A stretch of 44,844 nt of DNA from Myxococcales bacterium (GTDB lineage Bacteria; Myxococcota_A; Polyangia; Polyangiales; JAFGIB01), in contig JAPPOR010000847.1 in the NCBI GenBank assembly GCA_028817905.1, positions 1 through 44,844 on the forward strand, written 5' to 3'. Within the stretch, counting starts at the first letter, position 1. Each line of letters begins with the position of its first letter. A model generated the notes under the pieces. The model did not search any database. It was not told where the DNA came from and saw nothing but the letters and a program-made list of their open reading frames with translations. The position numbers and the translations under genes are program-made. Shown one piece after another: positions 1-44,844 of the stretch.

Positions 1-72
1 TAGGGCGGCGAAAGTCCTGTGGAGTCGAAGGACAAGCGAGGCGGCGTCGATGTCGCGAATGATGCGGGCTAG
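1..72. repeat. Right half of long CTAG-bounded palindrome
   Basis: The window opens inside this element. It starts at what is the internal CTAG of complete copies (compare 25728 onward), continues with the inner arm containing GCGAAAGTCCTGTGGAGTCG and the outer arm ending GATGCGGGCTAG at 61-72. It lies 13 bp beyond the stop of the envC-like gene, at that gene's 3' side. The left half is outside the window, so whether the copy is complete cannot be seen. Confidence 0.75.
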
Positions 73-85
73 CAATGGGTACTGG

Positions 86-1944: not shown

Positions 1945-1954
1945 CGGCTCCTCC

Positions 1955-2764
1955 TCATGCGCTCAGGCTGTGCATGCGTGCAGACCACGCACGCAGACCC
2001 TGGCTGGCCTCGATCAGGCGTCCCTCGTCGATGACGATCAGGCGATGGGGTGAAGTCTGTAGAAGCGCATGGTCGTGCGTTGCGAAGATGACGGTCGTAC
2101 CCGCATCGTGGATCTCTTCAAAGAGCGTCAGGATGTCGATAGCCAGCGCCGGATCCAGATTGCCAGTAGGCTCGTCGGCGAGAAGCAGGGCGGGTTCCGT
2201 GGCGATTGCGCGTGCGATCGCGACTCGCTGTTGCTCGCCACCCGACAGCCTTTCGGTTCGCTCGTTGCCTCGCCCGGCCAGCCCCACGCGTTCCAGCGTT
2301 TCTGCGACCCTGGAACGCACGACACGTACCGGGCTTCCCAAGATCTCCATCGAGACGGCTACGTTCTCGTAGACGGTCCAGTGAGGAACGACCTTGAAGT
2401 CCTGAAAGACGATGCCGAGGTTGCGTCGCAAGAACGGGATGGAACGTTCGGTCAGGCGCGCCACGTCTCGCCCGAGGAACAGGATTCGACCTGAATCGAC
2501 GGTGTGCTTTCGGTAGATGAGCTGCAGAAGTGTGCTCTTGCCTGCGCCGCTCGGCCCCGTGACGAATACGAACTCTCCACGCTTCACCTCGAGGGCGACG
2601 TTACGCAACGTGGGGACGTCACGTCGGAAGTACTTGTACACGTCCTCCATGACCAGAAGAGGCTTCTCAGCCGGTTGATTCGGATTGCTGCGTCCTAGAC
2701 CACGTACATGCGAGTCCGTTCGGCGAAAGCCCGCCCCGCTGCCGTCAAGGTTCACACGCGCCAT
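1955..2764 (-). CDS. ftsE: Cell division ATP-binding protein FtsE
   Basis: An ABC-type ATPase with Walker [11 protein letters not shown]-loop (VFQDF), signature LSGGEQQR, Walker [13 protein letters not shown] and the switch His in ATHDHALL. It is the nucleotide-binding half of FtsEX at the division site. From 2764 the protein has 269 residues, about 38 more than a typical FtsE. The extra N-terminus has no recognisable domain, so translation may start at the internal ATG at 2650, giving 231 residues. A GGAG lies only two bases before the 2764 ATG, which is tight. It is first gene of ftsE-ftsX-envC. A terminator-like hairpin separates it from the glycosidase gene upstream. Confidence 0.93.
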
Positions 2765-2796
2765 GGCTCCAAGTAACAGGCGCGGAACTTCAAACC

Positions 2797-2826
2797 AAAA
2801 AAACGGCGCGCCGAGCCCGGCTCAGC
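2797..2826 (-). terminator. Probable intrinsic terminator after the glycosidase gene
   Basis: On the minus strand a 6-bp stem (GCTGAG/CTCGGC with one G-U pair, loop CCGGG) begins just after the glycosidase stop. After six more bases it is followed by seven T. The offset between stem and T-run makes it imperfect. It would insulate ftsEXenvC from upstream transcription. Confidence 0.4.
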
Positions 2827-2828
2827 CG

Positions 2829-4103
2829 TCAACGTCGCGTCGGACCGCACGGCCGTTCGGCCCCACACGAGTGTTCGGCGCGTGAGTGGGCGAACGGCTG
2901 GATCGGCGGGGGCCCGGAGGCGGCTGACCAACTCTTCGGGGCAAGCCGCTGGTGCTCCCAGGGCGCGACCGCCGGGTCGGCAGCCCAGGGTTCTTGATAG
3001 GCAGCTGCTAGCAGGACCTCAGCCAGCTTTCCGTGGGGAGAGAATCCCCAAATCGCCTCCTGCGACACGTCGTCCAGGTTGGCGTAGTAGCGCCACACCA
3101 ACACACCGAGCAGCCAGGGCTTGGTGACAGCGGCACCGATCAGCGCAGATAGCGCGCGTGCCTGTTCCCACTCGTCGACGGCGACGTCTTTCATGTGGTC
3201 CGGCCACAACCAGGGCTCGACCGCAGCGTCGGCTCGGGAGGTATATCCGATCTCCAGCATCACGACCGGCATGCCCAGGGTCTCGGCCTGCTCGCCCAAC
3301 GAGGCGACGGCGCGCTCCGCTCCGGTGGCATAGTCTGGATAGCTCGCCCCTTTCGTGTGGGCGAGTGGGTAGAACGCGTTGACGCCAATCCAGTCCAGTT
3401 GATCCCAAAACAGGACGTGCTCTACTTCATCCCAGTTGGCGGAATAGGTTAGAGGGCCCGGAAAAATCTCACGAATCTCCGCGATGAGACGGGTCCAATA
3501 GCGACCAAAGCGGCCCGACCAAGAGACGCACTCGACTCCGATCGAGAAGGCGTCGATCCCAAGGCGGGCGGCGTCCTTGGCCCACGCGAGCACGAATTGT
3601 CGGTAGGCTGCTCGGTAGGCCCGCCAGCCCTCAGGGGAGCCGGGATCGATCTCGCCACGCCAGCCTTCGGTTTCCACCCACAAGTGGGGGATCAGAAGCA
3701 CGCGCAGACCGCGTGCGTGGGCCTGGGCGACCATGCGCTGTACGGCGAGGCGGTTCTCTTCGTAGGGGGCCTCGAAGTCCATGGTGATGTGCGTACTCTG
3801 CAGACTCCAGATTCGCCCGAATGGGGTGACAGAAATGGTGTTGGCGCCGAGCCTGACCAGTTCGTCAAGCAGAGCTTCGGTGTAGTGCGTGCCGTAGCCG
3901 CGCCCTGGCTGCTGCGACGATTCGATTGGGCCGACAGTGATCCCCCGGATGGCGCTCGGAGGCCCAGTGTACCGAGGCTGGTCTCCGACAAGAGGGTGGG
4001 CCACTGCTGCGTGATGTCCCTGCTGTGGGAGCTCACGCTGGGCCACGGCCGGGTGCCAGGCTAGGCAGGAGAGGGTAAGCACAATGACAACGAAGGTCCG
4101 CAT
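2829..4103 (-). CDS. Secreted GH113-like glycoside hydrolase
   Basis: The 424-residue protein has a clear signal peptide (about residues 1-21, ending AVA before Q) and a TIM-barrel glycoside hydrolase domain. The features resemble family GH113 (endo-beta-mannanase and relatives): RGITVGP near the N-terminus, a candidate acid/base Glu in SIGVEC and a candidate nucleophile Glu in VMLEIGY. W, N and F residues typical of the sugar cleft (WIGVNAFYPL) lie between them. The ATG at 4103 places the signal peptide at the N-terminus; the frame stays open far upstream but overlaps mglA and is not protein-like there. The substrate is not evident, and neighbouring division genes make a cell-envelope glycan as possible as mannan. 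Confidence 0.8.
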   Translation of the reverse strand: MRTFVVIVLTLSCLAWHPAVAQRELPQQGHHAAVAHPLVGDQPRYTGPPSAIRGITVGPIESSQQPGRGYGTHYTEALLDELVRLGANTISVTPFGRIWSLQSTHITMDFEAPYEENRLAVQRMVAQAHARGLRVLLIPHLWVETEGWRGEIDPGSPEGWRAYRAAYRQFVLAWAKDAARLGIDAFSIGVECVSWSGRFGRYWTRLIAEIREIFPGPLTYSANWDEVEHVLFWDQLDWIGVNAFYPLAHTKGASYPDYATGAERAVASLGEQAETLGMPVVMLEIGYTSRADAAVEPWLWPDHMKDVAVDEWEQARALSALIGAAVTKPWLLGVLVWRYYANLDDVSQEAIWGFSPHGKLAEVLLAAAYQEPWAADPAVAPWEHQRLAPKSWSAASGPPPIQPFAHSRAEHSCGAERPCGPTRR

Positions 4104-4334
4104 GGCTACATGCCCGACGCTGGGAGGGGCCTGTCTGAGGCTTCGGCTGGCGCGACGATAGGGGACCATGTCCGTCGCCACAACCACCGCTCGGGGAGCA
4201 ACTCGCGGTCGTAGGGACGCGGTGTCCCCCTGGCTAGGGTATCGCGAAGTCGCAGAGGACCCGGACCCGCCTCGCTTGGTCTTCGCGTTCACAGCATTTT
4301 CGCTTCCCCTCGCATAACCAGCCAGCGTTCGGTT

Positions 4335-4390
4335 GGTCGCCGAAAGCCTGCGCGAGGGGGCGCGCCTGGGGCGTGAGTGGTCCGGGCTAG
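4335..4390. repeat. Degenerate relic of the CTAG palindrome family
   Basis: The stretch ending GTGGTCCGGGCTAG resembles the right arm of the copies at 16931-17010 and 43102-43259: it shares GCGAGGG-GCGCGC, a GTGA, and the terminal TCCGGGCTAG. No matching left arm is visible. The final CTAG carries the mglA stop codon. Short and diverged, so the call is tentative. Confidence 0.35.
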
Positions 4391-4980
4391 CCGCCGCTGG
4401 CCTTCTTGAGCTCGGTGAGCACGAGTTTGGCCACCGCTTTGAGGGTGTCGAACACTCCGGTGCCCTCGGGCGCGATCGCCTCGAAGTCCGGGGCGCCGTT
4501 GGTGTTGAGCATTTGGCGGAGCTCATCCACAGGAGCGATTCCGGGCATGTCGCGCTTGTTGTATTGCATGACGAAGGGAACGCTATCCAGGGAGTATCCC
4601 TGCTCGGCCAGGTTGGTGCGTAGGTTTTCGAGTGACTCGAGATTCGCTTCCATGCGGGCAATCTGCGAATCGGCGACGAAGACAACGCCATCGACGCCCT
4701 TCAAGATCAGTTTGCGGCTCGCGTCGTAGAACACCTGACCCGGCACGGTATACAGGTGGAAGCGGGTCTTGAATCCACGGATCTCGCCGAGTGCGAGCGG
4801 GAGGAAGTCGAAGAACAGGGTTCGCTCGGTTTCGGTCGCGAGCGAAATCATCTTGCCGCGGGCGTTTGGGTTGGTCTTCCCGTAGATGTACTGGAGGTTG
4901 GCCGTCTTTCCGCACAGGCCCGGACCGTAGTAGACGATCTTGCAGTTGATCTCGCGCGACAGATAGTTGATGAAAGACAT
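4387..4980 (-). CDS. mglA: Polarity/gliding small GTPase MglA
   Basis: This 197-residue Ras-like GTPase sets the front-rear polarity axis in myxobacteria by binding the leading pole when GTP-loaded. Visible motifs are the P-loop GPGLCGKT (residues 19-26), the intrinsic arginine finger R53, the family-specific TVPGQ with T78 in place of the usual Asp and Q82, and NKRD for guanine recognition. These positions match Myxococcus xanthus MglA exactly. It follows mglB by 15 bp, as in Myxococcus, where MglB is its GTPase-activating protein. The stop lies in the CTAG of a repeat relic. No strong ribosome-binding site precedes the ATG, consistent with coupling to mglB. Confidence 0.97.
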
Positions 4981-4995
4981 GCAGCCGCGTTTCCC

Positions 4996-5475
4996 TTAGT
5001 CGTTGAAAAGGTTGTCTATGTCGTCATCGGTGATCTCGCCAAACGGGGCCTGACCCGGGGCGCCCGCCTTGTCCGCGAGGGTCTCGAAGATGGAGCTCAG
5101 TTGCTCGCAAGCCTTCTTCACGCGCAGTCGAACAAGCCCCAGGCTGGTCTTCTTGTCGAAGATGACGACCAGAATGACGCGGTTGTCCACCAGCTGAATA
5201 TGGATATTGGCGTTCTGTCCCTCGTGGAACTGGGTCGCAAACTCCTGCTCGCGTAGCAGCTTCGCCATGCCACCGGTCGCCGCGATGTTGCCGGCGGTCA
5301 GTGATGCCAGCGATGTCGTATCGATTTGATCCGCATCGCCGGCAGCTGCGATGAGCTGCCCGTTCTTGTCGATGATGAAGACGACGTTCGCGTTCGCCGC
5401 CTTCACTAACCCGTCCACGATCCCCTGGATCTGGGTGAACTCCTCTTCGTACATGACCATTTGCGGGTCGGCCAT
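4996..5475 (-). CDS. mglB: MglB, GTPase-activating roadblock protein
   Basis: The 159-residue Roadblock/LC7 protein is the GAP partner of MglA and marks the lagging pole. It has the MglB signature stretches VMYEEEFT, DKNGQLI, TTSLASLTAGN, QFHEG, TSLGLVRLR and the acidic tail DDDIDNLF, the same length as the Myxococcus protein. The ATG at 5475 is preferred over a TTG one codon upstream because GGAGG sits five bases before it. It is the first gene of the mglB-mglA operon. A promoter-like sequence lies 122 bp upstream. Confidence 0.97.
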   Translation of the reverse strand: MADPQMVMYEEEFTQIQGIVDGLVKAANANVVFIIDKNGQLIAAAGDADQIDTTSLASLTAGNIAATGGMAKLLREQEFATQFHEGQNANIHIQLVDNRVILVVIFDKKTSLGLVRLRVKKACEQLSSIFETLADKAGAPGQAPFGEITDDDIDNLFND

Positions 5476-5596
5476 CAACTCCTCCGCGCGCGTTTCGTGA
5501 TGAGGCTACGGCCCGAAGCTCGATTCACCGGTGACATCGCACCAATAAGTGAAAGCCGTGGCGACAACAGCTGTTCGTGAAGTGCCATCTTCAGGA

Positions 5597-5626
5597 ATTA
5601 TTCCCTATCATGCTGCTCGTTTACAA
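5597..5626 (-). promoter_or_regulatory. Candidate promoter for mglBA
   Basis: On the minus strand TTGTAA (5626-5621) and AATAAT (5602-5597) are separated by 18 bp, resembling a housekeeping promoter. It lies in a noticeably A/T-richer patch of the gap before mglB. No experimental support is available. Confidence 0.4.
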
Positions 5627-5727
5627 GCGCTAGCTGCGCGGGCACGGCACCTCAGCGTAGGCGAACGTACGCGCGGAGCCACATCCGACTCCATCGGCTT
5701 GTGGCATGCGTTATGTTTCCGGGCAAA

Positions 5728-6483
5728 ATGCCGCTGGTCACGCTGATCGCCAACCCATTCGTGCGTTTGCCGTTGTGGCTGTTGCGCTGCACCTTTTTTT
5801 GGGTTGCGTCCGGTCCGTGTGCGCTGGATTCACGTACGACTGGACAGCCGGTCGAACCATTTGCCACGCGCGGCACTGGGTTGGTAGAGCGCTTGCGTGG
5901 CCGTCGGCCGGGGCTGTCGCTCGCGCAGCTCGCGCGTCCGGCGAAGCATGCCACAAAAGATGCGGGGGTCTCTGGGTTGGTCGTCCACCTGGCCGCTTCA
6001 CCGGAGACTGGGCGATGGCAGGCGCCGTCCGTCGCGTCTTGGAGTCCTTGCGGAAGGCCGATCGGCGCATGGTGGTCTTTTTGCCCCAAGGCGGGGGCGA
6101 TCGCGAGCTTTACGTCGCGTCAGCTGCCTCGCAGGTCGTGATTCCCGCGGGCGCCGGTCTCGCTGCTCGGCTTCGCCGCGGGGGGAATGTAGTTTGGTGA
6201 ACTTCCGACGAACCTGGGGCTGGATGCCCAGGTGGTCGCCGAAGGCGCCTACAAGACCGCCGGCGAGCGGCTCGCGCAGGGCGAGATGAGCACGCGCGAG
6301 CACGAGCAGCTCGTGGCGCTCCTCGGTGCGCGGCAACGCTTGCTTGAGCAGGCATTGACCCAACCGCGGGAGCGTGGGGGGGTTGGGTCAATGCCTGCTG
6401 GGCATGTGGACGCCCTTTTCGAGCGGATGTTCTTCTCCGCCACGGACGCGGTCGCTGCTGGCTTGAACGATCAAGTCTGCTAG
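5728..6483 (+). pseudogene. Decayed, truncated SppA-type (S49) peptidase gene
   Basis: Protein similarity to signal peptide peptidase SppA can be followed through three frame segments. From 5728 one frame gives an N-terminal hydrophobic segment (LPLWLLRCTFF) and GLVVHLAASPETG. Near 6010 it shifts to a second frame reading MAGAVRRVLESLRKADRR and ELYVASAASQVVIPAG. Near 6160 it returns to the first frame, meets an in-frame TAG at 6190-6192 where a Tyr is expected, then reads LGLDAQVVAEGAYKTAGE and ends LFERMFFSATDAVAAGL. The lysine of AYKTA matches the SppA catalytic Lys (YKSA in the intact gene at 37.9 kb). The C-terminal domain with the catalytic Ser is absent: similarity stops where the repeat at 6480 begins. 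At least two frameshifts, a nonsense codon and a truncation make it non-functional. Confidence 0.75.
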
Positions 6484-6575
6484 CCCGGATCATTCACGAC
6501 CTCGGTGTCGGATCGCGCTGGGATTCGGCTTCACAGGGCCTTCCACGACGAAGGGAATACTCCCCGTATTTCCTG
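6480..6575. repeat. Left half of long CTAG-bounded palindrome
   Basis: It begins CTAGCCCGGATCATTCA at 6480, then carries the inner arm (GGATTCGGCTTCACAGGG) and the central GGGAATACTCCCCGTATTT. It stops where complete copies have the internal CTAG, and no right half follows. The first TAG is the terminal codon of the sppA relic, so the element sits exactly at the truncation point. Confidence 0.75.
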
Positions 6576-6576
6576 T

Positions 6577-6609
6577 GTCTGTATCGCGTCTGTAACGGGT
6601 CTGTATTGT
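6577..6609 (+). promoter_or_regulatory. Three 11-bp direct repeats, response-regulator-type site
   Basis: GTCTGTA occurs at 6577, 6588 and 6599, each starting an 11-bp unit (GTCTGTATCGC, GTCTGTAACGG, GTCTGTATTGT). Tandem binding sites spaced one helical turn apart are typical of OmpR/PhoB-family regulators; the Pho box is also made of 11-bp CTGTCA-type units. A CATATC at 6615-6620 could serve as -10, with the repeats in place of a -35. A hairpin (ATATCGGC/GCCGATAT, 6616-6639) follows. The lipoprotein gene starts at 6757. Confidence 0.45.
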
Positions 6610-6756
6610 GGGTCCATATCGGCGAAGGCGTGCCGATATAGACACGAATCACGGCAACGGGAGCCGGCGCCGCGGGTGCACGCCCCCCCCAAACCAGTGC
6701 CGTCTTGTCGGGTGGCCGTGGGCTCGTCTATGGTAGGCGCCAACGAGGAGAAGACC

Positions 6757-7326
6757 ATGTTGCGGAAGCGTGTGCATGTGGTGGTGTTGGGGCTTGTTGG
6801 TATTGCGCTTTGGGCCTGTGGAGGCGGCGGTCCGGACATCCAGGCCGGCCCCATGCCCCAAGGGGGCAATTTCACCGGTGTGTTCTTCTCGCCCCAATAC
6901 GGCGAGATGCATATGGTCCAGAATGGGAACACCGTCCGTGGCGAATACAAGCAGGAAGAGCGGACCGGCAAGATAACGGGCGAGGCTGATGGGGACCTGC
7001 TGCGCTTCGAGTGGGTCGAGCTCAAGGCGATGGTGTCGAATCGGCCAACCGAGACCCGGGGCCGTGGCTACTTCGTCTACAAGGTCGACCCCGCGAACGG
7101 GGAGCACGTGCTTACGGGTCGCTGGGGACTCGGCGACGACGAGCACACAGGCGGTGACTGGAACGCCTACAAGTCCAAGTCGCGCGAGCCGGAGCTCTCC
7201 GAGGAGTCCTCGAGCGGCGGCGAAGAGGGGGACGACGAGTACTACGACGACGACGATTTTGAGTCGGCCGACGATGATACCGGGTCGGAAGACGATGACC
7301 TCGGCGGGGACGACGACCTCTTCTGA
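6757..7326 (+). CDS. Lipoprotein with acidic C-terminal tail, function unknown
   Basis: A 189-residue protein with a lipoprotein signal peptide whose lipobox ends WAC followed by GGGG (Cys about residue 21). The middle (about 30-130) looks like a small beta-rich domain: NFTGVFFSPQYGEM, GEYKQEERTGKITGE, YKVD and GRWG. I do not recognise the family with certainty. The last 50 residues are almost entirely Asp, Glu, Ser and Gly. The start at 6757 has GAGGAG seven bases upstream; the frame is open further up but that part runs through the repeat. Its last 85 bp are also coded antisense by the SpoIIM-family gene. Three 11-bp direct repeats upstream suggest two-component control. Confidence 0.8.
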   Translation: MLRKRVHVVVLGLVGIALWACGGGGPDIQAGPMPQGGNFTGVFFSPQYGEMHMVQNGNTVRGEYKQEERTGKITGEADGDLLRFEWVELKAMVSNRPTETRGRGYFVYKVDPANGEHVLTGRWGLGDDEHTGGDWNAYKSKSREPELSEESSSGGEEGDDEYYDDDDFESADDDTGSEDDDLGGDDDLF

Positions 7327-8354
7327 GCACGGCCGGCCCTGAGCAGGTACGCATAGACGGCCGCACCTACCACGCCTGCAACGGTCAGCTTCGTGGAATA
7401 TGCGATCGCCGGGGCGTGCATCTGGCTGATGGTGCCCTCGATCGTGCCAGCCAGAACAAGGAGCGGCATGCCGCCCACGATCAGGACTGCAGCGGTCCTG
7501 GCCTCTGCGAGCAACGCTTCGCGGCGCGTTCGACGGCCGGGTATCCATTGAGCGCGTCCCAGGATCATGCCCGCGGCGCCCGCGATCACGATCACCGTTA
7601 GCTCTGGGATACCATGAGGCAAGATCCATGCCCAGAAGAACAGATCCTCGCCCTCGTGGTGATACTGCATGGCCAGTGCTCCGAGGGGCACGCCGTTGTA
7701 GAAAAGCAACGCAACGGTCCCGACACCGAATGTGATTCCAAGTGCGAACAGCAGGAAGGTTACCTGGATGTTGTGGGTGAATAGGAATCCGGAGAAGGCG
7801 GCGGCAGCGTCACCCTCGATCTCGCCCCCATGGCTGTGTTCGTTTGCGATTCGCTCGTGCGGTGTGTGTGACTGGTGCGACTCGGGTATCAGTGCGCCGA
7901 GGGCTTGTGGATCGCCGTGGACGAACAGGGCCCCGACGCCTGCTCCGGCTGCCAGGATGAGGGCCGACAGGATGACCGCGCATCGCTCTCGCCTGAAGGT
8001 TCTAGGAAACCTGCCCGTGAAGATCTGCCACCAACTGGAGCGCTCTTGCCGTGTCGGTCCGTGGACCACGCCGTAGGCGCGCGCCACGATGTCATTGAGG
8101 TACTCGATGGTGTAGGCGCCGGCGGACTCCGTGCGGGCGCACAGGAGATCGCTGGAAACCGTGCGATAGAGGCGACCCAGCTCGCGCGCTGCCTCGAGGC
8201 TCAGGCCCGCGACACCCAGTCGTTCGGCCTGAAGCAGCAGCTGCTCCAGGCGTTGCCAGCGGTCACTGCGATCCGCCACGAAGCGGTTGAGATCGAAACC
8301 GAATCTGTCGCGCGAGTCGGATGTTCGCGTCATGCTCGTCGCATCCTGGTTCAC
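7242..8354 (-). CDS. SpoIIM-family (DUF95) integral membrane protein
   Basis: A 370-residue membrane protein. The cytoplasmic N-terminus is helical (about 1-120), followed by several transmembrane segments with the SpoIIM/DUF95-type pattern: LFTHNIQVTFLLFALG, FYNGVPLGALAMQYH and WILPHGIPELTVIVIAGAAG. The HGIPEL stretch is characteristic of the family. In non-sporulating bacteria this family usually sits beside RDD proteins, and an RDD gene is divergent here. The role is unknown, perhaps membrane remodelling or transport. The C-terminus is a Ser-rich low-complexity tail antisense to the acidic tail of the lipoprotein gene, so the true end is unusual. The start at 8354 is the first available; no strong ribosome-binding site is evident. 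Confidence 0.8.
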   Translation of the reverse strand: MNQDATSMTRTSDSRDRFGFDLNRFVADRSDRWQRLEQLLLQAERLGVAGLSLEAARELGRLYRTVSSDLLCARTESAGAYTIEYLNDIVARAYGVVHGPTRQERSSWWQIFTGRFPRTFRRERCAVILSALILAAGAGVGALFVHGDPQALGALIPESHQSHTPHERIANEHSHGGEIEGDAAAAFSGFLFTHNIQVTFLLFALGITFGVGTVALLFYNGVPLGALAMQYHHEGEDLFFWAWILPHGIPELTVIVIAGAAGMILGRAQWIPGRRTRREALLAEARTAAVLIVGGMPLLVLAGTIEGTISQMHAPAIAYSTKLTVAGVVGAAVYAYLLRAGRAQKRSSSPPRSSSSDPVSSSADSKSSSS

Positions 8355-8526
8355 CAGCTATGGACGTCCGGCCGGACTGCCTGCACTTGCGGGCCGCCCC
8401 CACTACTGCCATCCAGACCGCGACGGCAGAGCCCTTTTTGGGGAGGGGTCGCTGCGCTGATACTACCTGCAATTTCCCGCGGGACGAAGTGTTGTGGGAT
8501 TCGAAGGTCGGGCCGGGCACGATGAA

Positions 8527-8585
8527 GGCAGGCGCCTGCCAGCGGGCTTCAGATGAGCGCAGGAGGCGCCTGCGCTTGCTATACT
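8527..8585 (+). promoter_or_regulatory. Extended -10 promoter with palindromes before the RDD gene
   Basis: TGCTATACT (8577-8585) is a good extended -10. Transcription would begin about seven bases later, essentially at the ATG at 8593, so the mRNA may be leaderless; no Shine-Dalgarno is present. Just upstream are a perfect 14-bp palindrome GGCAGGCGCCTGCC (8527-8540) and a related GCAGG-AGGCG-CCTGC (8559-8573), possible operator sites also facing the divergent SpoIIM-family gene. Confidence 0.45.
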
Positions 8586-8592
8586 CCGGCGG

Positions 8593-16930: not shown

Positions 16931-17010
16931 TTAGCCCGCATCGTTCACCAAAGCTTTGTGGCTCGAGCGGTTGTGCGAGGGCGCGCGAGTTGGTGATGGA
17001 TGCGGGCTAG
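16931..17010. repeat. Short variant of the CTAG palindrome family
   Basis: An 80-bp inverted repeat. TTAGCCCGCATCGTTCACCAA on the left pairs with the right arm TTGGTGATGGATGCGGGCTA, with only two or three mismatches, around a short core containing GCTCGAGCGGTTGTGCGAGG. It lacks the central GGGAATAC hairpin of long copies. The right half closely matches the reverse complement of the copy at 44790. It lies just before the regulator fragment at 17040. Confidence 0.75.
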
Positions 17011-18433: not shown

Positions 18434-18600
18434 CGAGCCCGCATCCATCACCAAGGCACGTGATGATCGTCCAAGTGATCGGCTTCGCAGGGCTTCAGCT
18501 GAAGGAGGGAATACTCGCTGTATTCTTGACTGAGGCGAAAGCGCTGCGGAGTCGAGCAGCTGTGCGAAAGGCACGTGATTTCGTGATGGATACGGGCTGG
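18434..18600. repeat. Long CTAG-family palindrome with eroded ends
   Basis: About 167 bp. Left arm GAGCCCGCATCCATCACC pairs with GTGATGGATACGGGCTG on the right; inside these are paired GGCACGTGAT-type segments, the inner arm CTTCGCAGGGCTTCAGC / GCGCTGCGGAGTCGAGC, and the central GGGAATACTCGCTGTATTC. The terminal CTAGs are mutated on both sides. It fills most of the gap after the AraC-GyrI gene. Confidence 0.7.
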
Positions 18601-21800: not shown

Positions 21801-22526
21801 CGCGCCGACCTTCGGCGAATGGCGGGCAACTACCTGGAAGGGCTTGGCAGTCCCGACGCCTTGCAGCTCGCGGTGGACAGCTATCGGCATGCGCAGCTCC
21901 AACGTCCAGACCACCCGAACTCTCACCGCCTCTACGGGTGGGCCCTGGTGAAAGCTGGCCAGCACGAGGCAGGGTTTCGGGCGCTTGCGAAGGGCTACAC
22001 CCGCGGCTACCCACGTGGCCGCTTCGCAGGCGTCAAGGACGTGCTCGCCGACGATCTTGGAGTCGTCGCCCAGATCTGGAAGCGGGCTGAACCGAAAGCC
22101 CGGGAGCGTATTGACACACAGCTCAGGCGGCTGGGCATCGGCGCCGACACAGCGCCTAGTCTGCGCTTCATCCTCTCGTGGGAGACTGACGCCAACGACG
22201 TTGACTTTCATGTGTACGACGGCAAGCACGGCCACGCGTACTACGGCCGCAAGCAGCTTCCGGCAGGGGGACAACTCTTCGCTGACGTGCGCAACGGTTA
22301 CGGCCCCGAGCTCTTCCGGATCGACCGACCCAAGGCCTACCCATTCGAACTTTCCGCACACTACTACAGTCGCGGACCCATGGGCTATGGCATGGGTAAG
22401 GTGCAGATTATGCATCACGATGGTGATGGAGGCGTCCGGTTCGATGAGCGCCCGTTCGTGATCATGAAGGAGCGGGCCTTCGTTCACCTGGGTGTGGTTG
22501 AACGCAACCAAGGGGAGGGAGCCTAG
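18849..22526 (+). CDS. Multidomain VIT/VWA/AgmX/TPR lipoprotein
   Basis: A 1225-residue protein. A signal peptide ends in LVQAC (Cys30). Then come a VIT domain (about 55-190; RARKTYEDFLHR), a von Willebrand A domain (about 265-430) with the metal-site motif DTSAS, a Pro/Ala/Arg-rich low-complexity linker (about 590-760), and an AgmX/PglI-type TonB-like domain (about 785-865; IQACYERELRRDPALRGHI). TPR-like repeats follow (about 905-1030), then a C-terminal YfaP/DUF2135-like domain (about 1070-1225; WETDANDVDFHVYD). The TTG start has GGGGAGG six bases upstream and places the signal peptide at the N-terminus; an ATG at 18900 is less likely. The VIT-VWA pair suggests protein binding at the envelope; AgmX-type domains are linked to gliding in Myxococcus. 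The stop lies in a 40-bp palindrome. Confidence 0.85.
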   Translation: MAIAKLENPRLRGCRSLMWVGLVATLVQACHADDNAPIEGVAEQAVAALSWEQSEEGGQGLPIRLTGSDGQGLALVSLRAEAIVQPPLAFTELHLTFKNPEARRREGRFEITLPDSAAISRFAMRIGDRFQEGEVVEKQRARKTYEDFLHRRQDPALLEQDAGNHFRARVFPIAPHEDKEIIVSYSQVLRDSSAPYRLHLSGLPSMDRLAIRVLAGPSELEMEKRRFAPNGDLILTGGTASLPNLAVRSGNVYMARVSPQLDSSPANVDGLTILLDTSASAALGYDARVERLGRLVDRLRKQRGSDFSLELFAFDQTCERVFAGPASRMAEVGLPLMHARMPLGASNLQAALSVLAKQASHARVLLVTDAVATAGEDGGRELTTQVGELAGRGVRRLDVLLTGGIVDAARAAQLATRGLPRPGVVIRERTSDDGVLAAITHKPVADLTVEVSGASWWWPRRVESLLPGQQVVVVANVPAGESAPEVRVGSDRSLSPRPLVVAEPLLRRAWARAKIDQLEASLDTLASDASAQRARLETEIIALSTRYRVLSGRTALLVLESEADYRRFGISRRALSDILTVGAQGLAVLDGAQRAGQTQAFARVEEQKSEGGAQEVAAAVQRQTRGRRADRVPPAGTPPSAGTTLSEPEPESAAAAAEVSRRAARPRAKRRAPTRGLSAQPPPPERLGGLARQAPSSSRLRQAQDVAPAAPAPSESAADVLLGLDRASSSGSLRTRAGGSSTARLAEGALVRERRIRGRVRMTQGAGGSKDFDRSIVVRAIKTRIRAIQACYERELRRDPALRGHIGVRFTIQPRGNVTSATETGNTTGSSAVAHCVLATVRRLRFNPGPPVAETFAHRFTFAPEESSDVPVIAQNVDSAESRRARREAARRRRARVAARRREREWNDRPKPNPSAALEGRLLSVIAAVDAGDAADALKRAWRWRTEAPGDVLALVALGHALVASEDPSQAARAYGSIIDLFPSRADLRRMAGNYLEGLGSPDALQLAVDSYRHAQLQRPDHPNSHRLYGWALVKAGQHEAGFRALAKGYTRGYPRGRFAGVKDVLADDLGVVAQIWKRAEPKARERIDTQLRRLGIGADTAPSLRFILSWETDANDVDFHVYDGKHGHAYYGRKQLPAGGQLFADVRNGYGPELFRIDRPKAYPFELSAHYYSRGPMGYGMGKVQIMHHDGDGGVRFDERPFVIMKERAFVHLGVVERNQGEGA

Positions 22527-22562
22527 CAAGTTCGCACCCATAAACGGGTGTGAACTTGCTAG
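22523..22562. terminator. Bidirectional CTAG palindrome between convergent genes
   Basis: CTAGCAAGTTCGCACCC and GGGTGTGAACTTGCTAG pair around a short ATAAAC loop, with one mismatch. The left CTAG carries the stop of the VIT/VWA gene and the right CTAG, read on the minus strand, the stop of the glycosyltransferase gene. The hairpin would form in both transcripts. No T-run follows, so it may stabilise 3' ends as much as terminate. Confidence 0.7.
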
Positions 22563-25622: not shown

Positions 25623-25789
25623 CTAGCTCGGACCCTTCATGACTCCGGCGTCGGATCGCGCAGGGATTCGGCTTCGCAGGGCTTTCGACGACCGACGGGA
25701 ATACTTCCCGTATTTTCTAGGGCGACGAAAGTCCTGTGGAGTCGCAGCACAAGCGAGGCGGCGCCGGAGTCATGAAGGGTACGAGCTAG
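25623..25789. repeat. Complete long CTAG-bounded palindrome (type copy)
   Basis: 167 bp from CTAG to CTAG. Outer arms CTAGCTCGGACCCTTCAT and ATGAAGGGTACGAGCTAG extend to about 28 bp with one mismatch. Inner arms (GGCTTCGCAGGGCTTTCG against CGAAAGTCCTGTGGAGTC) surround a central ACGGGAA-TAC-TTCCCGT hairpin followed by an internal CTAG. No open frame of interest lies inside. The right CTAG supplies the miaA stop codon. It sits between miaA and the DUF2723-type gene. Confidence 0.9.
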
Positions 25790-26709
25790 GTGAGTAGCTG
25801 TCGGCGCATCTGCGACAGACGGGCGCAGGTGTTTGCCTCGCAGGGGTGCATCCAGGCATCCACGCTGGGGTCGCTGCGGAACCACGTGCGCTGGCGCTTC
25901 GCGTAGGCAAGCGTCGCCTTGACGATCCGCGCACGGGTCGTGGCCGGATCGCCACCTTGGACGATGTGCTGCGCAAGTTCGCGGTAGCCGACCGCGCCAA
26001 GCGGGCGCACTGACGGTGAATACCGCGCTAGCAGTTCCGTGACCTCTTCGGGCCAGCCCGCATCCCACATCGTCTGAGTCCGCGCTTCGATGCAGGGCGC
26101 GTGGTGGGCAGCGGGCAGGTCCAGCACCCACATGAGGCTCCGGTAGCGTGGGCTGCCCAGGGCATGCTCGGCCCGCAGGACTCCTAGTGCCTGGCCGGTC
26201 TGCGCGAAGACCTCAAGCGCACGAACTACGCGTAGCTTGTCGTTGGGATGGATGTGAGTCGCGGTCGCCGGATCGACGGCGAGAAGTCGGCGATGCAGTG
26301 CTTCCGCTCCGAGTCGACGCCACTCCGCTTCGAGCTGGGCCCGCAGCCCCGCATCGACAGGGGGTAGTTCGAGCAGTCCCCTCAGCAGCGCGCGCAGCCA
26401 GAGACCCGCGCCCCCGACCACGATAGGTAGGCGACCGCGTTTGTGGATGTCTGCGATCGCCACGTCCGCGAGATGCGCATAACGAGCCGCGTCGATCTCT
26501 TCATGGGCGTCCACGACGTCGATCAGGTGGTGCCGAACCTGTCCTCTCTCGAGCGGTGAGGGTTTGGCGGACCCGAGGTCGAAACCCCGGTAGACCTGTA
26601 CGCTGTCGGCGCCAACGATTTCGCCGTCGAATCGACGACAAAGCTCCATCGCCACGGCACTCTTGCCTACGCCGGTAGGGCCGGCAATCACCATGACAGG
26701 AATGCTCAT
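25786..26709 (-). CDS. miaA: tRNA dimethylallyltransferase MiaA
   Basis: The 307-residue enzyme transfers a dimethylallyl group to N6 of A37 in tRNAs that read codons starting with U. It shows the P-loop GPTGVGKS (residues 10-17 region), GADSVQVYRG, HHLIDVVD and the C-terminal RPLGAVGYRE and KRQRTWFR stretches. The start at 26709 overlaps the mutL stop as ATGA, so the frame upstream is only the overlap with mutL. The mutL-miaA order is conserved widely. The stop codon lies in the terminal CTAG of the long palindrome at 25623-25789, and the last residues (RQLLT) may have been altered by it. Confidence 0.95.
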   Translation of the reverse strand: MSIPVMVIAGPTGVGKSAVAMELCRRFDGEIVGADSVQVYRGFDLGSAKPSPLERGQVRHHLIDVVDAHEEIDAARYAHLADVAIADIHKRGRLPIVVGGAGLWLRALLRGLLELPPVDAGLRAQLEAEWRRLGAEALHRRLLAVDPATATHIHPNDKLRVVRALEVFAQTGQALGVLRAEHALGSPRYRSLMWVLDLPAAHHAPCIEARTQTMWDAGWPEEVTELLARYSPSVRPLGAVGYRELAQHIVQGGDPATTRARIVKATLAYAKRQRTWFRSDPSVDAWMHPCEANTCARLSQMRRQLLT

Positions 26710-28523
26710 CGACCGAGCCGACGCTCCAAGTCGGAAAATGGTACGGTCAGGGCCACGGGGCGGCCATGGGGACAATGACTGCCGAATTCATCGATCGCGT
26801 CGAGGTTGGCCAGCAGTGTCTGCATCTCTTCGGGCGCCAGGTAGTCTCCGGCGCGGATGGCGGCGTGGCAAGCCATCGTGGCCAGTGCCATGTCGACGGC
26901 GTCGCCGAACGTCCGATCGCCATGGCCTTCTAGCTCGCCGAGGAGGTCACGCAGCAGCCTCTCCGGCGACGCTCTTCGCAGCAGTGCGGGGACCGCGCGC
27001 ACAGCCACAGTATCCGGACCCAGCAGTGCGCAATCCAGCCCGACCGAGGAGATCTCATCCCGATGAGTCTCGACCAGGTTGGCCTCCCGTTCGCTGCAGG
27101 CAATGCGCTCGGGAAATAGCAGGGCTTGGGTCTTGACGGCGCTCTTCTTGTAGCTCTTGCGCAGCTGGTCATACCGGACGCGCTCGTCGGCCGCGTGCTG
27201 ATCCAGGATGTGGAGACCGTCGCTGGCCTCGCACACCAGGAACATTCGACGGACCTGTCCAATCACGCGCATGCTGGCGAAATACCCTTTCGATTCGGTG
27301 GGCACGCGTGTTTGGGTAGGTGCCGCCAGCGGGCTTGGCTGGTCGCCGGCCGGCGCCCTGCTTGGCTCCCGTGGTTCGACCACGGCCCCCAAGCCCCAGG
27401 GGTCGGAAGGTTCGGGGCCCGTCGGGAGCTCCTGCCCGGGGTCCTCAATGCGCGCCTCAGCGCCCCCTATCGGATCGCGCACGTGCCCCGGGAGGTTCCG
27501 GGTCCAGTAGCTTTGTGACCGAGCGGCGGGGCCACGCCATGCCGACAGGCCGAGGCCCTTGGCAAGCGTTCGGGTAAGGGCGTCGAAGCGTCGCCGACCC
27601 TCGCGCAGGCGAACCTCACTCTTTTGCGGATGCACGTTGACGTCGACTTCGTCCAGTGGAAGCGCCAGGCGCAGGGCTCCGATGGGGTAGCGTCCCGGAG
27701 GCAAGACGCTCCCGTATGCAAACGCCACCGCGCGGGCCAACGAGGTGTCGCGGATGGGTCGGCCGTTGATGAATAGATGCAGGCCGGCGGCCCCCGAACG
27801 CGCCCTTTCCGGTGGGCCCAACACGGCTTCGATTCGCATGCCGTCGGCGTCCTCCGCCACCGACGTCAGGGTTTCGCCAGGGAACGCGGCCCGTACGCGC
27901 TCCGCGAAGCTGTTGGCTTTCAGCCAGGTGCGTGCGGTTCGGCCGTCGCGCGTGAGCGTCAACTGCAGTTCTGGATGGCAAAGCGCGACGCGCAAGCAGA
28001 CGGCCGCTATCTGGCCGCTCTCCGTCGCCTTGGTTCGGAGGAACTTTAGGCGCGCCGGCACGTTATAGAAGAGGTCACGCACGACCACGGTGGTCCCACT
28101 CGGACATCCGACTTCGCTGACTTTTCCTGGAGCGCCGCCAGCGATGGCTACACGCGTCCCTGCGACGGCCTCCGAGGTGCGGGTTCGCAGCTCGAAGTCA
28201 CTTACGGATGCGATGGAAGGCAGCGCCTCACCGCGAAAGCCAAGGGTCCCGATGGAGAAGAGCTGGTCTCGGTGGGAAAGCTTACTGGTTGCGTGGCGTT
28301 GCACGCAGAGGGTGGCGTCCTCGGGGGACATACCGACGCCGTTGTCGGTGACGCAGATCCTTGTCCGCCCTCCGTTTTCCATCTCCACGGTGATGCGAGT
28401 CGCCTGCGCGTCAAGCGCGTTCTCGAGCAGCTCCTTGACCACGCTTGCGGGCCTTTCCACGACCTCGCCAGCCGCGATCTGATCCGCTAGGGCGTCCGCC
28501 ATGACCTGTATCGTCTGAGTCAC
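26706..28523 (-). CDS. mutL: DNA mismatch repair protein MutL
   Basis: A 605-residue GHKL ATPase that links MutS mismatch recognition to strand incision. N-terminal motifs are IAAGEVVERPASVVKELLEN, VTDNGVGM and GFRGEALPSIASVS. The C-terminal dimerisation domain carries an endonuclease-type motif reading DQHAADERVRYD, where the last position is Asp and the consensus has Glu, plus ATMACHAAIRAGD and the zinc-site CPHGRP. The GTG at 28523 gives a normal N-terminus; GGGG lies four bases upstream. It overlaps miaA by four bases. An inverted repeat and a kinase gene lie divergently upstream. Confidence 0.95.
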   Translation of the reverse strand: MTQTIQVMADALADQIAAGEVVERPASVVKELLENALDAQATRITVEMENGGRTRICVTDNGVGMSPEDATLCVQRHATSKLSHRDQLFSIGTLGFRGEALPSIASVSDFELRTRTSEAVAGTRVAIAGGAPGKVSEVGCPSGTTVVVRDLFYNVPARLKFLRTKATESGQIAAVCLRVALCHPELQLTLTRDGRTARTWLKANSFAERVRAAFPGETLTSVAEDADGMRIEAVLGPPERARSGAAGLHLFINGRPIRDTSLARAVAFAYGSVLPPGRYPIGALRLALPLDEVDVNVHPQKSEVRLREGRRRFDALTRTLAKGLGLSAWRGPAARSQSYWTRNLPGHVRDPIGGAEARIEDPGQELPTGPEPSDPWGLGAVVEPREPSRAPAGDQPSPLAAPTQTRVPTESKGYFASMRVIGQVRRMFLVCEASDGLHILDQHAADERVRYDQLRKSYKKSAVKTQALLFPERIACSEREANLVETHRDEISSVGLDCALLGPDTVAVRAVPALLRRASPERLLRDLLGELEGHGDRTFGDAVDMALATMACHAAIRAGDYLAPEEMQTLLANLDAIDEFGSHCPHGRPVALTVPFSDLERRLGR

Positions 28524-36569: not shown

Positions 36570-36672
36570 CTAGCCCGGATCATTCACCGTCTCGACATCG
36601 CCTCCGGCCTCGATCTTCCCGCCTTTGGTCCTCCCCGCTCTTGCTCGTTCGCTTCGGTTGACCGAAAAGCCC
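36570..36672. repeat. Eroded left end of a CTAG palindrome
   Basis: It starts CTAGCCCGGATCATTCACC at 36570, the consensus left outer end, but the rest has diverged and no inner or right arm can be matched. Another isolated CTAGCCCGG occurs at 36779. Both sit directly before the complete copy at 36792, so elements have accumulated in this 500-bp gap. Confidence 0.45.
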
Positions 36673-36791
36673 AGCGAAGCCGATCACTTGCATGATCCTC
36701 CCGAGCCTTGAGCACGGTATTCTGCCCAGCTGCACGACCCTGAAAGACGCGTGACCGCTCGGGTTCGGTAGCTATTCCCTAGCCCGGTCCC

Positions 36792-36958
36792 CTAGCCCGG
36801 AGCATTCATGACTACGACGCCGCCTCGCCTGTCCTTCGACTCCACAGGACTTTCGCCGCCCTAGGAAACACAGGCAGTATTCCCGTCGGTCGTCGAAAGC
36901 CCTGTGAAGCCGAATCCCTGCGCGTTCCGACGCCGTAGTCATGAATGATCCGGGCTAG
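36792..36958. repeat. Complete long CTAG-bounded palindrome, inverted orientation
   Basis: 167 bp, the same length as the copy at 25623 but with the central GGGAATAC core on the opposite strand. Outer arms CTAGCCCGGAGCATTCATGA and TCATGAATGATCCGGGCTAG extend into ACTACG/CGTAGT and GACGCCG pairs. The internal CTAG is at about 36863. The right CTAG gives the stop codon of the TPR protein gene. Confidence 0.9.
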
Positions 36959-37815
36959 AGGGGTCCAACCAGCAACATGCCAACCTGTCGGTGGGACACC
37001 TGTGCGCTCACGGTGAAGGTTGGCTTGCGCTCGCCGTGGTTTGGACTGTCTCTGGTTTTGCCTTCTGGATCACGCAAGAAGTACAGTAGGGCGGCGCCCG
37101 CGACGGTGGCGAGCCCCGCCCCCAACAGCACGTCTGCCGTGAGCGCGAGTCGGTCCGCTTCGCGTGCCACGGACTGCTTGGCAGTGAGTGGTCCGTCGCC
37201 TTGCGGCGGTGATCCCAGGACGAACGCTACAAGGTCGTTTTCTCGTTGCAGCGCCATCCACCCCGTTACGCCGCTGGCGAGCAGCAGGCCAGCGCCCGCG
37301 GAGGCGGTGAGCCAAAATGCCAGGTCAGCTTTGCCTAGGGGCGTGTCTTCCGTGTTCACTCGCAAGTCCTTCAGCTTGCGAGGCTGAGCGGCAGCGCGCA
37401 CTTCGTCGCGAGCCCCGTGAAGCCGCATCAGGGTGGCTTTGATGTCGGCACGTTCGTCGCGTTGGTTCCGCTCGAGCGTGTCGAGGTAGCGGCCGTAGTA
37501 CGCGATGGCTTCGTCGAGGTTGCCCAGTAGCTCGTTGACGCGCGCGACGTTGTACATCAGGTTGGGCGAGTGCGGGTCGAGTTTGAGGGCGGCCTTGAGT
37601 CGGGCGATCGACTCCCGATAGCGTCCATCCTGGTAGAGCGCTCGGCCTTCGAGGTACAGGTCTACGGCCTCCGGCGGAGGCGACGGCTGGGCCCAACAGA
37701 GGTTTGCGGGTATGGTCACAGCAAGTGACCATGCGAGCAGGCATCCGAGCGTGCGCCCTACAGCGCTGGGTGTGCAGCCCTGTTGGGGGGAGGAAAGCCT
37801 ATCCCGTCCGAACAT
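36955..37815 (-). CDS. TPR-containing membrane protein
   Basis: A 286-residue protein with a signal peptide (about 1-42, ending CWA before Q), then two or three tetratricopeptide repeats (about 50-120; EGRALYQDGRYRESIARLKAAL is shown in part, then YNVARVNELLGNLDEAIAYYGRYLD). Two transmembrane segments follow (about 165-185 and 228-250). This layout, TPRs outside and a pair of helices, is frequent in Myxococcota next to kinase genes. I cannot assign a function. The stop is in the CTAG of the palindrome at 36792-36958. It is divergent from the SppA fusion with a 75-bp gap. Confidence 0.75.
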   Translation of the reverse strand: MFGRDRLSSPQQGCTPSAVGRTLGCLLAWSLAVTIPANLCWAQPSPPPEAVDLYLEGRALYQDGRYRESIARLKAALKLDPHSPNLMYNVARVNELLGNLDEAIAYYGRYLDTLERNQRDERADIKATLMRLHGARDEVRAAAQPRKLKDLRVNTEDTPLGKADLAFWLTASAGAGLLLASGVTGWMALQRENDLVAFVLGSPPQGDGPLTAKQSVAREADRLALTADVLLGAGLATVAGAALLYFLRDPEGKTRDSPNHGERKPTFTVSAQVSHRQVGMLLVGPL

Positions 37816-37890: not shown

Positions 37891-40401
37891 ATGGGCGACA
37901 GGTTTAAGGATCGCGCGGCGCTTTGTTCCTCCGGGCTCGTGCGTCGTGTCTTCGCGTCTCTCCTGGCATGGGTCTCAAGTCTTGCCTCGTTCGCCGCCTC
38001 GGCGCAGTTTCAGGGAGCAACCGATGGCGTTGTGGTTCCTGCGAGTTCCGTCGTGCTGCAGGACGATGCGGTAGTTGCCGAGGTGAACCCCGCGCTGCTC
38101 GGGTACCTCCAGGGGTTCAGCCTGGCTTATGTGCATGCCGAGGTGAATCGCAAGGGCGAGTGGTTGGGCCGCGGGGACGCACTGCACTTGGCCCTGCCAT
38201 TGTGGTTCGACCTTTCAGCTGCCCTGTCGCTGCAGAGCATCCGACCGGGGGATGCGGCGCTTCGCCCTTTCGGGATCCGGGCGGACCGAGGCATGGCCGC
38301 GCTGTCGCTCGCATATGGACCGAGCGACAGCTTCGCGGTGGGCGTGACCGCACGTGGTTTTTCGTCTCCTAGTGGGATGCTCGATGGGTTGGCCGCGATC
38401 GATATGGGCATGTCGCTGCGACCCTCTCCTGTGCTAGGCATCTCGCTCGTCGGACGCGATCTATTCGCTTCCCGGGAAGGACTTGGCACCGCCGGCCTAG
38501 ACCTGGGATCGAGCCTCGAGTTCGGCATTCAGCTCCGACCTCTGGGCGTCGATGACTTGATCCTCGACACCACCCTCGCTAGCGGTGTCGGAGGCCGCGT
38601 GGCCGGCCGTGCAGGCCTGGGGGTACGCATTCCGTGGCTTGGCTATGCAGCGGCCACAGCCGAGGTGGAGCGCTTCGCCGACTCAGACGCGGTGCTACGG
38701 TTGGTCGCCGAGCTGTCCCTCTCCTACGGAGGTGTGACCGCAGCCTTCGGCGGTATGGGCGGGGATGGCTTCTCGAGCAACGAGTTTAACTGGTATGCAA
38801 TGGCACGGCTTGAGGGCTTTCAGCGGAGAGGTCTCCCGGTTGGGGGGGCGGTACTGGATCTTAAGCTCGAAGGGCTCGGACCGCGTGGAATGCTATCGGT
38901 GCTTGCGCTTCTCGATCGGGTCCGTACCGATGATCGCGTCGCGGGCGTGTTGTTGCGACCCAGGGGATCCCTTATGGGGACCGCCTATGCCCAGGAGCTG
39001 CGGATGCAAATTCGGGCCTTGCAGGCGGCCGGCAAGCCGGTGGCTTGCCATCTAGATGGGGCGAGTGGTGCCGAGTTCTACGCCTGCACGACGGCTGATG
39101 AGGTGATGTTAGACCCCGCAGGCAACGTGCGCTTCGCGGGTGGTGCGGCGCATGTGCTCGTGTTTGGCGGTACGCTTCAGAAGCTCGGGGTGCGCGCCGA
39201 CTTTATTCGCATCGGTCCCTATAAGAGCGCGCCCGAACAGTACACCGAGCGCACCATGTCCGAGCCTGCTCGACAACAGCTAGCCGGTCTGATGAACGAT
39301 GTTCAGCGGCGTATCCATACCGATGTGGCGGGCGACCTTGGGGTCTCGCGTTCGCGCGTTTCTGAACTCATGGATACCGGGATGTTTCTTGCGCTCGACG
39401 CCCAGGCCGCCGGGATGATCGATGGAGTGGCGGATGAGGTTCTGCTCCCTCAGTTGGGCATCGGAGAGTTGGGCCGGAGGCCGCTCAAGCGCAAGGTGCC
39501 AGACCTGCGTGACCGCCATATGGGCACCGCTGCTCGCATAGGTGTCGTGTTGGTGGACGGGGCGATCGTGGATGGCGAAAACGTCGACGTTCCGTTCCTG
39601 GGTACCCACATGAGTGGCGCGCGTACTGTCGTGAAGGCGCTTGAGGGCTTGGCTTCCGACCCAACGGTGCGCGCGATCGTTCTGCGGGTGGACTCGCCCG
39701 GTGGGTCCGTGCTGGCTTGCGACCAGATCTGGCGCGCGGTCATGCGCGCGCGCGAGCGCAAGCCGGTCATCGCTTCGATGGGTGCTGTAGCGGCGAGTGG
39801 TGGCTACTACGTCGCCGCTGCTGCGGACGAGATCTGGGCTGACCCGTCCACGGTGACCGGCTCGATCGGCATCTTCTACGGCAAGGTCGACATCAGCCCG
39901 CTAGCGGAGCAGCTTGGCGTTGGTATAGATATCATCCAGCGTGGCAAGCGGGCAGGGGCCGATAGCATGTGGCGGTCGTTTACGCCGGATGAGCGGGCGG
40001 CCTTCGCAGACAGACTGCGTCGATATTACCGGGTGTTCTTGGAACGCATCAAACAGGGGCGCGGCATGGACGTGGCGCGCATCGACGAGCTTGGACGCGG
40101 GCGCATCTATTCCGGCGATGCGGCGCAGCGCGTCGGGCTGGTGGATCATCTCGGAGGCTTCGGCGCCGCGCTGCGCAGGGCCCGCCACCTGGCACGCCTC
40201 CCTCCGGACGCATCGATGGTCTTGCTGCCCAAGGGCCCACCAGGCTTGCTCGAAATGGTTCTTGGCCTGCGGTCTGCGGGGGCCACTGCGTCAGCACGCG
40301 TCCCGGCCCCCTTGGTCTCACTGGCGCACACATTTTCGCTGCTCTATCTGCTCGACGGCCAACGCGCGATGGCCCTCATGCCGCTGGATCTCCGCCTCTA
40401 G
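37891..40401 (+). CDS. sppA: SppA-type S49 peptidase fused to an N-terminal barrel-like domain
   Basis: An 836-residue protein with a signal peptide (about 1-38, ASAQ). About 40-300 is a region of alternating short strands (LALPLWFDLSAALSLQS, FAVGVTARGFSSPSG, GISLVGRDLFAS) that looks like an outer-membrane beta-barrel or similar beta domain. Two S49 domains follow (about 300-520 and 545-770), as in 67-kDa SppA. The catalytic dyad is present: Lys445 in GPYKSA and Ser636 in AASGGYY; the sequence GSIGIFYGK follows. SppA degrades membrane-released signal peptides; here the extra N-terminal domain suggests envelope or outer-membrane targeting. It is convergent with a small lipoprotein gene and ends in a shared CTAG palindrome. 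A decayed paralogue lies at 5.7 kb. Confidence 0.88.
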   Translation: MGDRFKDRAALCSSGLVRRVFASLLAWVSSLASFAASAQFQGATDGVVVPASSVVLQDDAVVAEVNPALLGYLQGFSLAYVHAEVNRKGEWLGRGDALHLALPLWFDLSAALSLQSIRPGDAALRPFGIRADRGMAALSLAYGPSDSFAVGVTARGFSSPSGMLDGLAAIDMGMSLRPSPVLGISLVGRDLFASREGLGTAGLDLGSSLEFGIQLRPLGVDDLILDTTLASGVGGRVAGRAGLGVRIPWLGYAAATAEVERFADSDAVLRLVAELSLSYGGVTAAFGGMGGDGFSSNEFNWYAMARLEGFQRRGLPVGGAVLDLKLEGLGPRGMLSVLALLDRVRTDDRVAGVLLRPRGSLMGTAYAQELRMQIRALQAAGKPVACHLDGASGAEFYACTTADEVMLDPAGNVRFAGGAAHVLVFGGTLQKLGVRADFIRIGPYKSAPEQYTERTMSEPARQQLAGLMNDVQRRIHTDVAGDLGVSRSRVSELMDTGMFLALDAQAAGMIDGVADEVLLPQLGIGELGRRPLKRKVPDLRDRHMGTAARIGVVLVDGAIVDGENVDVPFLGTHMSGARTVVKALEGLASDPTVRAIVLRVDSPGGSVLACDQIWRAVMRARERKPVIASMGAVAASGGYYVAAAADEIWADPSTVTGSIGIFYGKVDISPLAEQLGVGIDIIQRGKRAGADSMWRSFTPDERAAFADRLRRYYRVFLERIKQGRGMDVARIDELGRGRIYSGDAAQRVGLVDHLGGFGAALRRARHLARLPPDASMVLLPKGPPGLLEMVLGLRSAGATASARVPAPLVSLAHTFSLLYLLDGQRAMALMPLDLRL

Positions 40402-40448
40402 CCCGCATTGCTCACCAGCGCGAAGCGCTGGCGAGCAATGCGGGCTAG
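40398..40448. terminator. Near-perfect 51-bp CTAG palindrome between convergent genes
   Basis: CTAGCCCGCATTGCTCACC and GGCGAGCAATGCGGGCTAG pair, extended by AGCGC/GCGCT, around a GAA loop: 24-bp arms with one mismatch. The left CTAG is the stop of the SppA gene and the right CTAG, on the minus strand, the stop of the lipoprotein gene. No T-run. Its ends match the long palindromes (CTAGCCCGCAT), linking it to that family. Confidence 0.8.
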
Positions 40449-41065: not shown

Positions 41066-41308
<243 letters not shown>

Positions 41309-41614: not shown

Positions 41615-43259
<1,645 letters not shown>

Positions 43260-44789: not shown

Positions 44790-44844
44790 CTAGCCCGCAT
44801 CCATCACCAAATCACGCGCCCTCGCACAACTGCTCGACTCCGCA
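44790..44844. repeat. CTAG palindrome, left part, cut by the window end
   Basis: It begins CTAGCCCGCATCCATCACC and continues into CGCGCCCTCGCACAACTGCTCGA, closely matching the reverse complement of the right half at 16931-17010 and of the right arm at 18434-18600. It lies 11 bp upstream of the accC start. The remainder is outside the window. Confidence 0.7.

Follow-up and report, generated by a model that had tools for sequence, protein, structure and literature searches.

The repeated palindromes of the 44.8-kb window, which is the whole stretch of DNA analysed, very probably belong to an IS1380-type MITE that is very abundant in its host and has CTAG as its target. The copies end sharply with CTAG on both sides and are dispersed in hundreds, and complete IS1380 elements in the phylum have matching ends and the same CTAG. 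The mobile unit would be about 159 bp long (CCCGGATNATTCA...TGAATNATCCGGG) and non-coding. It would insert into CTAG and duplicate it, and its ends would be recognised by an IS1380-family DDE transposase acting in trans, which might now be lost or missing from the assembly. Such an element is ordinary in kind, a MITE and not a new kind of element; what is notable is its abundance, its CTAG and stop-codon rule, its apparent IS1380-type parentage and its covarying arms. If this assignment is right, it connects a very abundant orphan repeat with IS1380, a family of bacterial piggyBac relatives.

Copies in the window and in the host genome

Two subfamilies are distinguished by the bases next to the flanking CTAG: CCCGGATNATTCA in subfamily A and CCCGCATCCATCACCAA in subfamily B. 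The full-length subfamily A copy at 25623-25789 (plus strand) has a 159-bp core (25627-25785) flanked by two CTAG, the right one of which contains the MiaA/IPPT stop codon (gene at 25786-26775, minus strand); its RNA is predicted to fold at -113 kcal/mol (z -12.4). A second full-length subfamily A copy, at 36792-36958 (minus strand, profile match), is also 167 bp long, lies in the opposite orientation and is 88% alike. Its right CTAG contains the stop codon of a TPR-protein gene (36955-37815, minus strand). The subfamily A copy at 43102-43259 (plus strand, profile match) has a deletion inside one arm and measures 158 bp, and its left CTAG contains the stop codon of enolase (41696-43105, plus strand). 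Subfamily B is represented by a full-length, eroded copy at 18434-18600 (plus strand). The earlier note, made from the letters of the window, had described these four copies as a family of nested palindromes bounded by CTAG; the family is real and the copies are as described. The short variant that it listed at 16931-17010 (no strand assigned) is a subfamily B copy shortened to 80 bp by an internal deletion, and its half copy at 6480-6575 (subfamily A, plus strand) is a true half that stops at the position of the internal CTAG. Another half copy (C29:2539-2611) ends in the same way as that at 6480-6575, where subfamily A has its internal CTAG (or CTAC); from these half copies, the internal CTAG may sometimes serve as an element end.

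A profile made from the 167-bp copies detected eight copies in the window. Two of them were absent from the earlier note: an eroded copy at 4263-4389 (minus strand, 33.8 bits) and an eroded subfamily A copy at 36570-36698 (minus strand, 22 bits). A 51-bp CTAG-bounded mini-hairpin with CCCGCATTGCTCACC ends at 40398-40448 (no strand assigned) was likewise absent from it; the left CTAG of this hairpin contains the stop codon of an S49 peptidase gene (37891-40401, plus strand). No Rfam match to the window was found.

The window is one whole contig (G000:C983) of a draft genome of 11.14 Mb in 1110 contigs. The partial copies at its two ends, listed before as a half copy at 1-72 and a cut copy at 44790, are indeed present. 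They are not variants of the element, because the contig ends cut them: 1-72 (plus strand) is the right half of a subfamily A copy truncated by the contig start, and 44790-44844 (no strand assigned) is a single subfamily B end cut by the contig end. The assembly thus broke within the repeats, and the abundance of the element helps to account for the high number of contigs.

Genome-wide, the subfamily A end CTAGCCCGGATNATTCA gave 741 matches with up to two mismatches, compared with none for the reversed pattern, and the subfamily B end CTAGCCCGCATCCATCACCAA gave 565 matches with up to three mismatches, compared with one for the control. The genome total would be roughly 650 element equivalents. 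In a survey of 609 kb, 123 copies were found, 70 of them full length and mostly 166-168 bp; this sample was picked around copies, so that it overstates their density. The limits of the copies are sharp at CTAG, and the flanks are unrelated to each other. The copies are short, non-coding and numerous and have terminal inverted repeats, as in MITEs. Among 57 genomes, nine contained element ends, with 1 to 532 matches each: the host had 532 and the genomes of the same family 0-28. The copies are far more frequent than expected by chance, as the 741 end matches against none and the CTAG counts given below show. The proposal that the family is a non-autonomous mobile element also holds, in view of the terminal inverted repeats, the fixed CTAG boundary, the hundreds of dispersed copies and their patchy occurrence in relatives, seen as differences between whole genomes.

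Subfamily B copies are up to 97-100% alike. In another genus (G004), one subfamily B copy reaches 95% likeness, compared with 76-80% for the other copies of that genome. This high identity, together with the G004 copy, points to recent movement, and perhaps to transfer between genera. Two elements, L247:1743-1908 and L235:1886-2046, combine an A-type with a B-type end; such hybrids suggest that the subfamilies have exchanged sequence. In a genome of another family of the same order (G054), 159 matching ends belong to an element about 184 bp long (e.g. L053:1501-1684, and L047). The interior of this element is unrelated, which means that several MITEs have these ends. Viral contigs with the end pattern had mostly isolated matches, and no transposase was found in the three viral-contig loci inspected.

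CTAG boundaries and stop codons

CTAG is present at both profile ends in 43 of the 70 full copies; among the remaining ones, many are one-base variants or reflect edge effects of the profile. Within the 609 kb, 50 inverted repeats are bounded by CTAG, at 933 CTAG sites. For 15 other palindromic tetramers, having 60 to 8,586 sites each, 0-9 bounded inverted repeats were found outside the elements, the exception being CCGG (19 at 5,155 sites), which belongs to the element arms. Per site, none of these tetramers flanks inverted repeats comparably often.

Serial copies share a single CTAG. Three in a row (A-B-A) occupy C314 19379-19871 (segment coordinates), and further arrays with one shared CTAG are in C148, C145, C32 and C417. 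Such arrays would form if each insertion duplicates its CTAG and leaves one on either side. In the nested case of C166, one element lies within another without loss of flanking bases, and a 4-bp slot that is GCAG in the sister copies is CTAG twice. This fits a 4-bp duplication, but the element might also carry its own CTAG, which counts against the preferred explanation. A search for empty sites with joined flanks gave no clean site, since it was swamped by shared element ends. Most copies have CTAG on both sides and neighbours in arrays share it, but CTAG is itself a palindrome; it is a putative target site duplication.

In four genes of the window, those of enolase, MiaA, the TPR protein and the S49 peptidase, the stop codon is the TAG of an element CTAG. 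The closest relative of the window enolase is that of a Sandaracinaceae MAG (81% identity), followed by Myxococcales and related MAGs, which suggests that the host is a Myxococcota of the Polyangiales type. The enolase gene of this nearest relative (L159) stops at the corresponding codon, which is TGA there, and lacks an element at its 3' end; therefore, the native stop is where the window element lies. The 64 occupied sites of the survey comprised 21 at stop codons, 43 in intergenic regions and none inside predicted genes, and the unoccupied CTAG comprised 66, 233 and 429, respectively. Genes were predicted by a simple script, which overlooked at least MiaA; the number of stop-codon sites is thus a minimum. 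Occupancy is higher at stop codons than at all other sites together (odds ratio 4.9, p=6.5e-7), and it is not significantly higher than at intergenic CTAG only (odds ratio 1.7, p=0.077). A preference for stop codons as a targeting rule was rejected for this reason. The simplest reading is that insertions inside genes were purged, whereas stop codons were spared since the duplication restores them. Insertion into a C-TAG stop would re-create CTAG and leave the protein intact, and copies at stops and between genes would survive. A transposon with such a target rule could enter stop codons harmlessly.

Among the script-called genes of the genome survey, window included, 186 stop with TAG, 161 with TGA and 21 with TAA. 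TAG is thus the commonest stop of this GC-rich genome, and about half of the TAG stops have a preceding C.

Ends shared with IS1380 transposons

PF13701 matches occur in 74 of 379 genomes of the phylum. Around 23 of these loci, inverted ends were searched de novo, the window motif not being used. In nine of the 23 IS1380 loci (L102, L103, L104, L109, L116, L119, L121, L128 and L130), inverted repeats starting with CCC, or a one-base variant of it, were found with CTAG on both sides (CTAG-CCC...GGG-CTAG); the same search gave 0 of 40 at enolase control loci. Transposases of IS1380 loci scored 345 and 388 bits with NF033539 (cut-off 180). The lower of these belongs to L109, a 1.67-kb element encoding a 450-residue transposase of the NCBIfam IS1380 family, whose ends are CCCGGATAATTCACGACC and CCCGGATCATTCACCAAC. 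Its left end, CCCGGATAATTCACGAC, differs from the subfamily A consensus, CCCGGATCATTCACGAC, by one base in a match spanning the first 17 bases, and its right end shares TCACCAA with subfamily B. The ends of the window family thus match those of an autonomous transposon, L109, and of further IS1380 loci, and both ends and target are the same as in IS1380 elements. IS1380 insertion sequences (NF033539, PF13701) resemble the window elements in their CCC-starting inverted ends, and L109 has the same 13-bp end. They differ in being about 1.5-1.85 kb long with a transposase gene, compared with about 160 bp of non-coding sequence in the window family, and no significant likeness was found between the interiors of the window elements and L109.

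No IS1380 transposase was detected with the PF13701 and PF01609 profiles in the host assembly, which is fragmented at repeats, nor was any found in seven relatives that bear the element. The link to IS1380 therefore rests on ends and target. The family is classified as IS1380-type by these two features, a narrower statement than that IS1380 moved it; we infer that an IS1380-family transposase moved the host copies.

The IS5, IS701 and IS630 families have YTAR or CTAG-like targets. The earlier note had compared the family with MITEs of IS5-like transposases, and a MITE of another DDE family, namely IS5 or IS701 through YTAR or IS630 through the TA inside CTAG, would account for the boundary. 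This origin seems very unlikely. The matching ends, found on IS1380 elements, and the CTAG boundary speak for IS1380 transposons. The host had no match to DDE_Tnp_1 (PF01609) or DDE_3, the profiles that the search covered for these families, and no matching transposase was found there with DDE_Tnp_1, DDE_3, DDE_Tnp_1_4 and Y1_Tnp. In relatives on Persicobacter (Bacteroidota) megaplasmids, which have the same ends as the window family, CCC is preceded by the tetranucleotides TTAG and TTAA; this fits a 4-bp target and not a TA target between an invariant C and G. More widely, the target may follow YTAR.

The Persicobacter element is a 222-bp MITE with CCCGGATTATTCATGC ends (L097:4000-4225 on plasmid 2 of sp. 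JZB09, L098, L099 and L100). In L100, a related copy is split by another insertion sequence, which we take from its protein to be IS1595-like. It was rejected as the parent of this MITE, as it interrupts the copy.

The other model named in the earlier note, that of REP-type elements, would mean REP/BIME palindromes dispersed by a RAYT (Y1 HUH transposase), for which CTAG would be the guide tetranucleotide; it is largely refuted and hardly credible. The window elements are, like REP/BIME, abundant intergenic palindromes bounded by a tetranucleotide, and RAYT-like genes do occur in these genomes. However, the window family has another end structure, with long terminal inverted repeats and CTAG at both ends, and no linked RAYT. 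The RAYT loci of relatives have flanks without these ends, and none of the RAYT genes found has elements on both sides. The RAYT of the host (L031 1046-1724, G000:C60) appears frameshifted and cut by a subfamily B copy. It is the IS1380 loci, not RAYT, that carry the ends. A transposase with matching ends, which the earlier note had proposed to look for beside RAYT, exists as IS1380 in relatives within the phylum; in the host neither it nor a RAYT with such ends was found. In L031, the subfamily B end is at 1670, just beyond the region matching Y1_Tnp.

IS1380 is a distant prokaryotic relative of piggyBac (PMC10140906), which has TTAA as its target and ends mostly starting with CCC (PMC10813416). 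The likeness of the window family to piggyBac, whose transposase is distantly related, is one of ends and target only, that is, CCC ends and a palindromic 4-bp target; piggyBac is eukaryotic and uses TTAA, whereas the window elements are bacterial and use CTAG. Correia elements (IS630-type) and MITEPye1 (IS1182-type, PMC11578231) are also short, non-coding and mostly intergenic, with inverted-repeat ends, terminal direct repeats and hairpins, and are thought to be mobilised in trans. The window family differs from both in its IS1380-type parent, CTAG target and several hundred copies. In the literature searched, no IS1380-derived MITE was found.

Complementarity of the arms

Compensatory changes were found in 27 of 50 pairs among 49 aligned subfamily A and B copies, and 97% of the cells paired, compared with 32-38% for slid partners; owing to the common descent of the copies, shuffles overstate the significance. 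The nested palindrome is real and is more than sequence likeness. In the outer 13 bp, covariation can be explained by recognition of both ends by one transposase. Beyond the outer 13 bp, another cause is needed, for example, template switching between the arms or selection on the folded strand. G-U pairs exceed A-C pairs (29 versus 19 in rare cases, 7 versus 0 in common cases), which is suggestive only of selection at the RNA level; the strand evidence for RNA is weak.

These pairing data, the very stable fold and the many copies at stop codons would also suit a domesticated 3'-end element, in which the hairpin is under selection as a bidirectional terminator or mRNA 3' stabiliser overlapping the stops of the host, possibly on top of a MITE origin. 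This explanation is considered to be unlikely. The elements show no significant orientation relative to genes (14 same and 8 opposite; 26 and 20), stop codons are not significantly preferred over intergenic CTAG, as described above, and there is no U-tract at the CTAG ends; an intrinsic terminator would show a U-tract after a GC-rich hairpin and a gene orientation. The patchy presence in relatives and the fresh copies with 97-100% likeness also count against it.

There is a slim chance that an active process, such as hairpin-templated copying or selection on the folded strand, keeps the arms complementary well past the transposase-binding ends and that the host has co-opted stop-codon copies as structures at gene ends. 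A transposon would then supply the 3' ends of a considerable fraction of the genes. The family offers a large natural set of paired arms in which the upkeep of symmetry in long palindromes can be studied.

Other palindromes and repeats were also observed. A 40-bp near-perfect CTAG-bounded hairpin of another family (CTAGCAAGTTC...GAACTTGCTAG) lies at 22523-22562 of the window, and its two CTAG contain the stop codons of two convergent genes. Further CTAG-bounded palindromes without CCC ends are at C385:8057-8220, C192:8900-8957 and C10:1297-1384. A tandem repeat of the GCCGTC/ACCGTC type occupies 41069-41210 of the window, in coding-like sequence.
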